From positions 1 to 64,000 of the forward strand of contig WVYX01000203.1 of assembly GCA_011772755.1 (NCBI GenBank): 64,000 bases of DNA, in the 5' to 3' direction. This DNA comes from Gemmatimonadales bacterium. Lineage in GTDB: Bacteria > Gemmatimonadota > Gemmatimonadetes > Gemmatimonadales > GWC2-71-9. Below are positions 6,272 to 14,738 of the stretch, one piece after another. Every line of letters begins with the position of its first letter. The stretch's first letter is position 1. The notes below the pieces were generated by a model. The model did no database searches. It saw only the letters and a program-made list of their open reading frames with translations, and was not told where the DNA came from. The translations under genes were made by a program, and so were the position numbers.

Positions 6272-7795
6272 CTATCCCTCGTCCTTCCTGACAACGGGCC
6301 AGCTACCGGTAGAACGCAAGAACCGCACCGGATCCTCGCAAAATTGCTGGCGGCACTCTTCGCTCTGGAAGTAGTACGTCGTCCCCTCATAGACGAAGAC
6401 GATGGCTTTCGCCGGATCCACCGCCACCCCGGATACCGGATCCCGGATCTCGTCGGCGAGCCCCATCATCGCCACGGGCGTCGGCCGCGGTGGGCGCATA
6501 CCCAGCACCGACGTGTACAGTCTGAGCTCGTCGGCAATCATTCTCGTCAGGAGGAAGCGCTCGCGAACCAACTCCCTGCCCAGCTCGCCGAGACGCGACG
6601 CCTCGTCACGGTGCTCGATCAAACGAGCCACATGGGTCGCGCAGTCCTCCACAGACTGGACCAGGACGCCCCCCGCCCCGCCTTCCATTTGCAGCGGGAT
6701 GCCGCCAGCGGCGCGGGCCACCACCGGCGTTCCCTTCCACAGCGTCTCGGACACCACCAGGCCGAAGCCTTCCCGGATGGACAGCTGGATGACAACGTCG
6801 GCCATTCGCTGGAAGGCGTTGACCTCGATGTTTCCCACACCCGTGAGGTTGGTGAATACGAACAGATCCGGATCTTTGTCTCCGATCTCACGGATCTGAT
6901 TGTAGATGTCCCACCCTTCGGGGTCGTCCAACGCCATAGACCCGACCAGCGCGAGTTGGAGATCGGGCATCTGCTCCTTTGCCACACGATACGCCTGGAT
7001 GACCCCCAACGGATCTTTCCACGGATCAAACCGACTCACTTGCGCCGTGAGCGGTCGGTCGGGGTCAACGCCGATCCACTGCAAGACGCCATTCGCGATA
7101 TCCGGCGTCAGCTCCATGTTCTTGGGGCTCAGGGGGTCAATGGCGGGCGGGATGATTTCAACCCGGTCGATGGGGAGGTCCGGCGGCACGAACCCGCCGA
7201 GGGTGAACACCGCGGCGTCGTAGTGCTTGAGGAAGGGCCTCAGGAAATCCCAGACGTCAGGGTTGGGCTGCGAGGTATCGATGTGACAGCGCCAGATCCA
7301 TTTTGCCGACCCCCGACCGTGAAACTCCAGCAAGCCCATGGGCTGGGGATCGTGGACGAAGTAGAGGTCGTACTCCTTCGATTGGAGCTGCGCATTGATC
7401 TTCGCGTTCTCGACGTAGATCGCACGGTCGAGATCGGTGAGATCACGCTCTGATCCCTGCAGGCCGTTGTGCATGGCCTTGGTCGTCCGGAAGAATGCCT
7501 CGCCGCCCGTGATGATCCGCCAGTCGACCTCCAGACCCAGATCCCGGAGCAGCGGTATCTCGGCACGGAGGATCTCGGCCACTCCACCTCCGTAAGGTGT
7601 GGCATTGACGTGAAGCACCCTGATACCCTTGAGCGGCCTCGCCAGCTCTCGGAGCTGCTCGACGGCGTCACTGCCTGCGCTGTCCTGGTAGGTATCAATG
7701 CTGTTTCTACCCACATCAACGGCCTGGAGCATCGGCAACTCCGGACTGTGTTGGAAGCTTGGCAAGGCGCGTTGGCACATCCCCCGCTTGCGCAC
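6272..7795 (-). CDS. treT: Trehalose synthase-type glycosyltransferase (TreT-like, GT4) with C-terminal YHS-like domain
   Basis: [66 protein letters not shown]-terminus [42 protein letters not shown]. Confidence 0.88.
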
Positions 7796-7868
7796 CCATT
7801 ATCGCCAGCCGCAGGGGATAGCGCAAACCGAGAGTTCTCGGTAGATTGGCAAACCACAACTGAATGCT

Positions 7869-7922
7869 CGTGGTGATTTGCGGCGTATTGCAGCCACGTT
7901 AAACAAGTCGCTAAAAAGCCCG
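7869..7922 (+). ncRNA. SAM-II riboswitch aptamer (metA RNA type), upstream of metH
   Basis: P1 CGUGG (7869-7873)/CCACG (7894-7898); conserved blocks UGAUUU, GUAUUGCA, GUUAAA and GCUAAAAAG in the SAM-II order; L1 GGC can pair with 3' GCC (pseudoknot). Confidence 0.85.
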
Positions 7923-7958
7923 CCCCGGCGCGAATTTAGCGGCGGGGATTGTTTGTTA
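7923..7958 (+). terminator. Intrinsic terminator-like hairpin directly after the SAM-II aptamer (possible expression platform)
   Basis: CCCCG-g-CGC gaattta GCG-g-CGGGG followed by ATTGTTTGTTATT. Confidence 0.6.
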
Positions 7959-7967
7959 TTGCAAGCA

Positions 7968-8092
7968 GTGAGCTGTGCGCGGTGCGCGGGGGTGCAAGAC
8001 AGACATGGTGAGACATTTGAAGTCGCTTGGGGTCTGACCAGCTGACATTTGCCCCAGCGTACAGCTCACCGCGCACTGCGCACCTGCACCAG
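7968..8092. repeat. Heptamer inverted array (gtgcgcg type) between riboswitch and metH
   Basis: gcagtga gctgtgc gcggtgc gcggggg / cagctca ccgcgca ctgcgca cctgcac. Confidence 0.8.
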
Positions 8093-8101
8093 GGAGCATT
8101 C

Positions 8102-11817
<3,716 letters not shown>

Positions 11818-11821
<4 letters not shown>

Positions 11822-13671
11822 GCGCGACACTTCGCGAGTTCATCGACGACGGGCGGGTCCACGTCATCGACGGCGCCATGGGCACGATGCTCTACGGCAA
11901 AGGCATGTTCGTCAACGTGTGCTATGACGAACTCAACCTCACCCAGCCCGACGTCGTCCAGCAAGTGCACGAGGCATACATCCAGGCTGGCGCCAGCATC
12001 ATCGAGACCAACACCTTCGGGGCCAACCCGGTCAAGTTGTCGAGCCACGGCCTGGACACAGAGACGGAGAAGATCAACCAGGCCGCAGCACAGATTGCCC
12101 GTAACGCGGCCCCAGGCCACGTGTGCGTCGTGGGTGCCATCGGACCTCTGGGGATTCGGATCGAGCCGTGGGGTCCCACCGCCCGGGAAGAGGCGGAAGA
12201 GTTCTTCCGCCGGCAGGTCCGTGGCTTGTTGGACGGCGGTGTGGACGGATTCATGCTGGAGACCTTCAGCGATCTGGATGAGATTCACGCCGCCTACCGG
12301 GCCGTGCGCGGCCTCAGCAGTCTCCCGGTCATCGCCCAGATGACCATCGACGAAAGCGGACGGTCCGCATACGGAACGGACGTCGAGAGGATCGCCACCG
12401 CGCTCACCGATTTCGGAGCTGACGTAGTTGGCCTCAACTGTTCGGTTGGCCCGGCAGTCATGCTGGACGGCATTGAACGAATGGCGGAGGTCACGGATCG
12501 GCCGCTCTCGGCATTGCCAAACGCAGGACTTCCCCGGTCAGTCGGTGACCGCAAGATCTACCTCTCGAGCCCGGAGTACATGGCCAACTACGCCCAGCGG
12601 ATGATCCGCGCCGGGGCACGGTTCGTCGGCGGGTGCTGCGGAACCACGCCCGAGCACATCAAGAAGATCCGGGACCTCGTCGCCACCATGCAACCGCGGC
12701 AGCAGACCGTCGTGGTGACGCGATCGGAGGTTGAGGCTCCCGCCGGGGTCGAGCCGGTACCCTTAGCCGAGCGATCCCACTGGGGGGAGAAGCTCGCCAC
12801 CGGAGGGTTCCTCACCAACGTGGAATTGATGCCGCCCAAAGGCTGTCAGCCGGATACCCTCATAGAACAGTGTCGAACGCTGAAGCACGCGGGCGTGGAC
12901 GCGGTGAGCATCCTCGACGGTCCGCGGGCGCAAAGCAGAATGGGAGCCATCCCCGCAGGGATCACCGTCCAGCGGGACGTGGGAATCGAGACGGTGATTC
13001 ACTACACCTGCCGCGACCGCAACATGCTGGGCATGATCAGCGATCTCCTCGGCGCGGCAGCGGCGGGGCTGCGCAACATCCTCATCGTCACGGGGGACCC
13101 ACCCCGCACGGGCCCGTATCCCGACTCGACCGCGGTCTTCGATATCGACAGCATCGGCCTCACCAACGTGGTGTATCGGTTGAATCACGGCCTCGACCCC
13201 GGAGGGAATCCGATCGGGGCCCCGACCAAGTTCGTCATCGGCGTAGCCCTCAACCAGTCCGCCGTGGACGTGGAGCGTGAGCTCAGTCGGCTGGCGTGGA
13301 AGGTCGATGCCGGCGCCGAGTTTGCGGTGACGCAACCCGTGTTCGATCCCGATCAACTCGCGGCGTTTCTAGAGCGGGTCGAGGGCTTCCGCCTTCCCGT
13401 GATCGCGGGAATCTGGCCGCTCCTCTCACTGCGGAACGCGGAGTTCCTGGCAAACGAGGTGCCGGGACAGCAGGTCCCCCGCTCCGTCATCAACCGCATG
13501 CGAAAAGCCCAGGAACGAGGTCAGGAGGCAGCCCGCGCCGAGGGCATCCTCATAGCGCGGGAGATCCTGGAGGCGGTAAGAGACACCGCCCGGGGCGTCC
13601 ACGTGAGCGCGCCCCTCGGCAAGGTGGATGTCGCGTTGCAAGTGGTTGCTGACCGAGCAATTCGCAATTAG
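11818..13671 (+). CDS. Bifunctional homocysteine S-methyltransferase / methylenetetrahydrofolate reductase
   Basis: [27 protein letters not shown], then MTHFR domain ([41 protein letters not shown]); ATGA overlap with metH. Confidence 0.92.
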
Positions 13672-13865: not shown

Positions 13866-14738
13866 TCAGGCTTCCAGTACCTGGATCAGCTTCCGATACC
13901 GATCTTCCGGCTTCCGGAAGCCCAAGTTGCTGACGTAGACCTTGTCCACACCGATGTCGCGCAGTGCGCGAACGGTCCTCGCGCAGATCTCCTCGGCCGA
14001 GAGCCCCGATTCGAATTCCCGCGTCACGGCTTCGGCCGGGACTGGGAAGAACCGCTGCAGTTTCCCAAAGGTTGCCGGATTGGCTGACCGATAGAGAAAC
14101 ACGCCGAATACGCCGGGAGAGGGCACGTCTCGTCGCCGCGCTTCCTCGACGAATCGTTCCACCTGCCGGATGTCGTGGTGTGACACGATCTGCGTGAGGT
14201 AGAAGTCACCGGTGAATTTCTGTCGCAAGAGGTAGCCCACCTGGTCGCCAGGATCTCGATGCGGGTTTGCCCAGCCTCCGAGCCCCAGTGAGGGATGCCG
14301 CCGCCGAATCATCTGCCGCAGCATGTAGGCATACTCGACACACCGAGGTGGCCCGACCGTGCGATCGCCACCCAGGACCGTGAGGGCTTGAAACCCGTGA
14401 GACGCCGCCCGGTCGGCGTACATCAGGCAGTACTCGAGGGCGTGTTTGCAGGTGAGAAACGGCGCCAACTTCGCCGGGCTCACATCACCGGCCAGGTTTG
14501 TCACGAGGTGGCGGAGGTTCTCTTCCTCCGACTCGCCAACGGCGTTGTCCGTGAGGAACAGGACCGTGTCATGCCGTGCCAGCCGCCGCACCGAGTGGTA
14601 CATGTCGATCCACGTGTCCATGCTGGCGGCAGCCGAGAGGCCAATCTTCGGGGGCCGAAGCTCAACCGCTACCAGCGGGCGCTGTTCCGTGAGGCGCACT
14701 AGCAGGGAGCCTTCCGCAGGAGAAGTTGGCGCTGTCAT
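13866..14738 (-). CDS. Methylenetetrahydrofolate reductase-like protein (short, divergent)
   Basis: ALTVLGGDRTVGPPRCVEYAYMLRQMIRRRHPSLGLGGWANPHRDP and QKFTGDFYLTQIVSHHDIRQVERFVEEAR. Confidence 0.7.
   Translation of the reverse strand: MTAPTSPAEGSLLVRLTEQRPLVAVELRPPKIGLSAAASMDTWIDMYHSVRRLARHDTVLFLTDNAVGESEEENLRHLVTNLAGDVSPAKLAPFLTCKHALEYCLMYADRAASHGFQALTVLGGDRTVGPPRCVEYAYMLRQMIRRRHPSLGLGGWANPHRDPGDQVGYLLRQKFTGDFYLTQIVSHHDIRQVERFVEEARRRDVPSPGVFGVFLYRSANPATFGKLQRFFPVPAEAVTREFESGLSAEEICARTVRALRDIGVDKVYVSNLGFRKPEDRYRKLIQVLEA

Follow-up and report, generated by a model that had tools for sequence, protein, structure and literature searches.

A SAM-II riboswitch with a candidate antiterminator upstream of metH in a Gemmatimonadales bacterium, and its relatives across the Gemmatimonadota

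The window analyzed here, a 64-kb stretch of DNA from a 4.24-Mb draft genome of a Gemmatimonadales bacterium, encodes a cobalamin-dependent methionine synthase, MetH, preceded, as the initial annotation had it, by a compact RNA element. The metH frame is open from 8027, and its likely start is the TTG at 8102, with AGGGAG 5 nt upstream. It overlaps by 4 bases the gene for a bifunctional homocysteine S-methyltransferase/methylenetetrahydrofolate reductase (HcyS-MTHFR), so the two are probably carried on one transcript and would both respond to the element. The aptamer is located between metH and a divergent trehalose-synthase-like gene starting near 7795. This divergent gene (6272-7795, minus strand) encodes a TreT-like trehalose synthase fused at its C terminus to a YHS domain (Pfam PF21269, PF04945), a combination that looks uncommon. 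A 290-aa ORF convergent with the metH operon (13866-14738, minus strand) matched neither NCBIfam (at 0.001) nor Pfam (at 0.01). The features of the leader and operon are as follows:

7842..7847, plus strand: possible -10 promoter element TAGATT (by the position of TANNNT in relatives)
7856..7863, plus strand: ACAAYYGA box directly 5' of the aptamer, conserved in relatives
7869..7920, plus strand: SAM-II aptamer core (RF00521, 53.3 bits over 7860-7935)
7869-7873 and 7894-7898, plus strand: P1 helix, CGUGG/CCACG
7874-7887, plus strand: L1, UGAUUUGCGGCGUA
7882-7884 and 7918-7920, plus strand: P2 outer pairing, GGC/GCC
7888-7891 and 7910-7914, plus strand: UUGC with GC(U)AA, parts of the aptamer core
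7910-7920, plus strand: GCUAAAAAGCC
7907..7915, plus strand: predicted antiterminator 5' strand GUCGCUAAA, lying within the aptamer and pairing with 7935-7943 in nascent-RNA folds
7935..7943, plus strand: predicted antiterminator 3' strand UUUAGCGGC, shared with the loop and 3' arm of the terminator
7923..7947, plus strand: terminator hairpin CCCCG-G-CGC gaauuua GCG-G-CGGGG, -16.7 kcal/mol, with equivalents in relatives
7948..7960, plus strand: U-rich tract AUUGUUUGUUAUU, interrupted
7965..8083, plus strand: inverted repeat with arms 7965-7987 and 8057-8083, built of the GCGCGGTGCGC motif
8102..11821, plus strand: metH, cobalamin-dependent methionine synthase (NF007024, 2114.6 bits; TIGR02082, 1768.5 bits)
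11818..13671, plus strand: bifunctional HcyS-MTHFR (NF006396, 714.5 bits)

The initial annotation had read a SAM-II riboswitch from the letters of the plus strand and had proposed an Infernal search against RF00521 as the check. That search (Rfam cmscan) returned a plus-strand match to RF00521 (SAM_alpha, SAM-II) at 7860-7935 of 53.3 bits, above the gathering cutoff of 36 (E-value 3.6e-9), which covers the model end to end (positions 1-79), and the letters are as they had been read. RF00521 is the sole Rfam family above gathering in the 64-kb window; a match to SgrS (12.1 bits, gathering 37) was taken as chance. With this score, a P1 helix, a covarying P2, and a position 5' of methionine/SAM genes, the element is, on sequence grounds, a genuine further member of the known SAM-II class, and it presumably binds SAM.

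The pairing of GGC in L1 with the 3' GCC had been suggested to reflect covariation, and this is borne out by 90 related elements, in which the outer P2 helix occurs as GGC/GCC (24) and CGGC/GCCG (10), as CGC/GCG (23), or as GCG/CGC (14). At least three P2 pairs are possible in 88 of the 90; because these GC-rich strands still reach three pairs in 73% of cases when partners are swapped, covariation is better argued from the distinct compensatory alleles.

Two short motifs precede the aptamer. ACAAYY is found within 30 nt of P1 in 77 of the 90 elements, mostly starting 9-16 nt upstream, against a shuffled rate of 2.6%, and TANNNT, often upstream of the ACAAYYGA box, occurs 45 to 14 nt 5' of P1 in 73 of the 90, a count made without a shuffle control. 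No good -35 was seen with TAGATT, and a sigma-70 scan of this region of the window found no promoter. The ACAAYYGA box probably marks the 5' end or start region of the transcript, or it may have a separate role of its own.

Directly 3' of the aptamer, the GC hairpin with a U-rich tail noted in the initial annotation folds at -16.7 kcal/mol; its tail is interrupted, and a simple terminator scan did not list hairpin and tail on the plus strand. Rated by sequence and folding, the hairpin at 7923-7947 is a putative intrinsic terminator placed between aptamer and gene. A terminator-like hairpin directly follows the aptamer in 85 of 89 related elements, which supports the transcriptional control that had been proposed, and under a stricter tail rule it is present in 75 of 89 versus 19 of 178 shuffles. 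In the exceptions, which have no terminator, the start codon lies 12-16 nt past GCUAA, an arrangement that suggests direct occlusion of the ribosome site; some HcyS-MTHFR loci in Gemmatimonadota look to be of this type.

Two premises of the original argument for transcriptional control did not hold. One was that SAM-II acts mostly on translation, which is contradicted by Corbino et al., SAM-II terminators being already known as common. The other was the distance of about 180 nt between aptamer and gene. The aptamer end at 7920 is separated from the likely metH start by ~182 nt, and this unusual distance is probably due to a dispersed palindromic repeat in the spacer, so it is in itself no argument for transcriptional control; in relatives with the same kind of terminator, the gene start is often ~55-90 nt past GCUAA. 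The arms of the repeat consist of GCGCGGTGCGC, a 13-mer with 106 near matches in the genome on both strands, versus 48 for a reversed control pattern. The motif is dispersed, with opposed pairs ~70-150 nt apart at several places, and no second full-length copy of the whole inverted repeat at 7965-8083 was found. As a dispersed palindromic family with GCGCGGTGCGC arms, it is reminiscent of REP or MITE elements.

Among the relatives, complementarity between aptamer and terminator takes two forms. In type A, the P2 3' strand GCUAAA, with the bases that follow, finds its complement in the loop and 3' arm of the terminator, which carry the motif UUU(A/G)GC; in type B, the complementarity is between L1 and the 5' arm of the terminator. 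This division was made after seeing the data: a pooled duplex test over all loci had shown little because the two wirings were mixed, and the result became clear once they were split. The check sample consisted of another 60 loci, of which 56 were parsed; almost all of them came from new genomes. The terminator rule in this sample was lax, with 67 of 168 shuffles passing, and the terminator count from it was not used.

The type A motif is found in 24 of 85 terminators, versus 0.8% after shuffling, and in 13 more in the second sample. Bases beyond the motif track the aptamer variant (ACG with CGU, GAG with UUC, AAG with CUU); in statistics that ignore kinship, as do all the covariation statistics for both types, extra pairs reach 2.40 with the element's own partner versus 1.56 with swapped ones (0 of 5000 permutations). 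For type B, L1 GCCGCG goes with CGCGG and GCCGCC with GGCGG (14:0 versus 0:7, p 8.6e-6; second sample 4:0 versus 2:9, p 0.011). At loci without the type A motif, the longest L1 complementarity is 4.82 with the own terminator versus 3.96 (0 of 5000 permutations); at type A loci, L1 complementarity is no higher with the own terminator. The two types are largely exclusive, since the type A motif is present in 1 of 42 distinct L1-GCCGC loci versus 34 of 86 others, and many loci fit neither motif simply.

In the folding model, the window element has the type A wiring. When the nascent RNA is folded at successive 3' ends, the core pairs between 7907-7915 and 7935-7943 have probabilities of 0.77-0.93 at 3' end 7941 and 0.82-1.0 at 7943-7945, and the terminator takes over (0.95-0.99) once the 3' end reaches 7947 and beyond. 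The model is nested and the pseudoknot is not scorable in it; under constraints that mimic the SAM-bound state, P1 being enforced and the P2 strands kept out of pairing, the probability of the terminator is ~0.99. The terminator is thus exclusive with a pairing that involves the aptamer, for which the comparative support ignores kinship. The full-length RNA at equilibrium favors the terminator even without ligand, so a switch would need kinetic control, and the folding series fits a kinetic OFF switch.

It is therefore likely, in our judgment, that this SAM-II riboswitch turns off metH and the overlapping HcyS-MTHFR gene by transcription termination when SAM is high. While the polymerase passes, the nascent RNA would either bind SAM and form the P1/P2 pseudoknot or adopt the alternative pairing. 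Without SAM, the P2 3' strand GUCGCUAAA would pair with UUUAGCGGC, using up part of the terminator loop and 3' arm and allowing read-through. With SAM bound, the P2 3' strand would be occupied, the hairpin at 7923-7947 would form, and the polymerase would stop in the U-rich tract.

The interrupted U tract counts against termination and would suit an element that works chiefly through translation or RNA stability, with the hairpin as a weak or constitutive terminator. Such a role has a parallel in Sinorhizobium meliloti metA, where riboswitch control of the terminator is not predicted and translation is regulated from a distance (PMC9373788), and in those Gemmatimonadota elements that have no terminator and a start codon just past GCUAA. 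Here, however, the metH start and AGGGAG are ~180 nt away, with the palindromic repeat in between, and hairpin and aptamer share an element that covaries in relatives; we regard this explanation as unlikely. We consider an ON switch, in which SAM would keep the P2 strand out of a longer hairpin (7919-7946) and so prevent termination, to be very improbable. CCCGCC at 7919-7924 can indeed pair with GGCGGG at 7941-7946, and 7919-7920 belong to P2, but this alternative terminator was rejected on folding, its probability being near zero in all folds, and the hairpin at 7923-7947 lies entirely downstream of P2. Repression of metH at plentiful SAM also suits both feedback logic and the OFF switch proposed for SAM-II by Corbino et al. 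2005 (PMC1273637).

Still less probable is a decayed or non-binding SAM-II relic. The draft genome contains a single SAM-II copy, and two genomes of the same genus have no SAM-II match, as a relic might predict, but the strongly conserved model positions are retained in the 53.3-bit match. As for the two genomes, the metH match in one starts right at the beginning of a contig, which cuts off the leader, and the other yielded only a C-terminal piece of metH.

The genome falls in one order with G109, a genome whose 1,106,233-bp replicon is 100% identical over 6 kb to a plasmid of Gemmatirosa kalamazoonensis, a species of the Gemmatimonadales. SAM-II is otherwise widespread in this lineage. Matches occur in 56 of the 61 nearest genomes (Gemmatimonadales), 54 of them above the cutoff, and in 205 of 300 genomes of the phylum, with 175 above it; phage records gave no match. 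We lean toward the view that in Gemmatimonadota SAM-II is a main SAM sensor, working through two largely exclusive transcriptional wirings, A and B, and, at some loci, through direct occlusion; type A would then represent a SAM-II platform not described before.

Terminators downstream of many SAM-II members are established as predictions (PMC1273637, PMC2258182), and in S. meliloti the terminated metZ leader RNA is higher in rich (high-SAM) medium (PMC9373788). The window element shares with the SAM-II (metA/SAM_alpha, RF00521) of Corbino et al. 2005 the aptamer sequence, P1 and the P2 pseudoknot, the position at methionine genes, and terminators. It differs in its host, a member of the Gemmatimonadota rather than of the proteobacteria or Bacteroides, in its gene, metH, and in the predicted alternative pairing between the P2 3' strand and the terminator loop. 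Like the S. meliloti metZ element (PMC9373788), it has a terminator directly after the aptamer. The S. meliloti locus and two further rhizobial loci have an L1 CCGG that could base-pair with the 5' arm of the terminator, an arrangement that resembles type B; none of the three showed the type A motif. The same aptamer fold is expected as in the Sargasso Sea metX SAM-II (structure 2QWY), but the latter blocks the ribosome site directly (PMC10907184), whereas here there is a terminator, with the ribosome site ~170 nt away.

The switch type is thus known, while its near-universal use in Gemmatimonadales and the two terminator wirings were not found in the open-licence literature searched, nor did any open-licence paper found treat Gemmatimonas and SAM-II together. 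Type A is most likely the new part, as judged from sequence comparison with very few alpha-proteobacterial loci. This comparative platform result lifts the element modestly above routine annotation. The findings extend a compact pseudoknot riboswitch, known chiefly from alpha-proteobacteria, to the probable control of methionine, aspartate-family, and sulfur genes throughout a phylum that has received little study, and they offer a concrete, testable antiterminator model for transcriptional SAM-II, a mechanism far less studied than the translational form.

The genes behind the 90 related elements include metH and the fused HcyS-MTHFR, which form one cluster of 46, as well as thrC, panB, homoserine dehydrogenase with or without aspartate kinase, metF, metY/metB-type enzymes, metX, aminotransferases, cysH, and a nitrite/sulfite reductase family protein. 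Such a gene set is consistent with feedback by SAM on methionine, on its precursors, and on the assimilation of sulfur. A less expected regulon member is panB, found behind five of the elements (L033:2106-2999 and four related loci); it functions in pantothenate synthesis and consumes a folate one-carbon unit.

No SAM-I was found in the draft genome containing the window. Both SAM-I (RF00162) and SAM-II (RF00521) were matched in genomes G064, G075, G078, G084, G086, G090, G102, and G170, and also in G183, G218, G227, G229, G276, G303, and G308. These belong mostly to one genus (g75), and both matches are above the cutoff where scores are given. Barrick and Breaker 2007 (PMC2258182) found no species with both. 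Contamination may account for the co-occurrence, many of the genomes being drafts, but its recurrence within one genus speaks against this.

In four elements (L084:2019-3002, L078:3375-4556, L054, and L060), SAM-II precedes a gene for an ATP-grasp-like protein (IAIYHEHPDWFRPLFAELD...). Its Pfam matches to ATP-grasp are no more than weak, and the one member run against NCBIfam gave no match there. The L002/L078 locus (G049:C13:14227-14583) has a back-to-back pair of SAM-II elements, ~200 nt apart and on opposite strands, in front of panB and the ATP-grasp-like gene.
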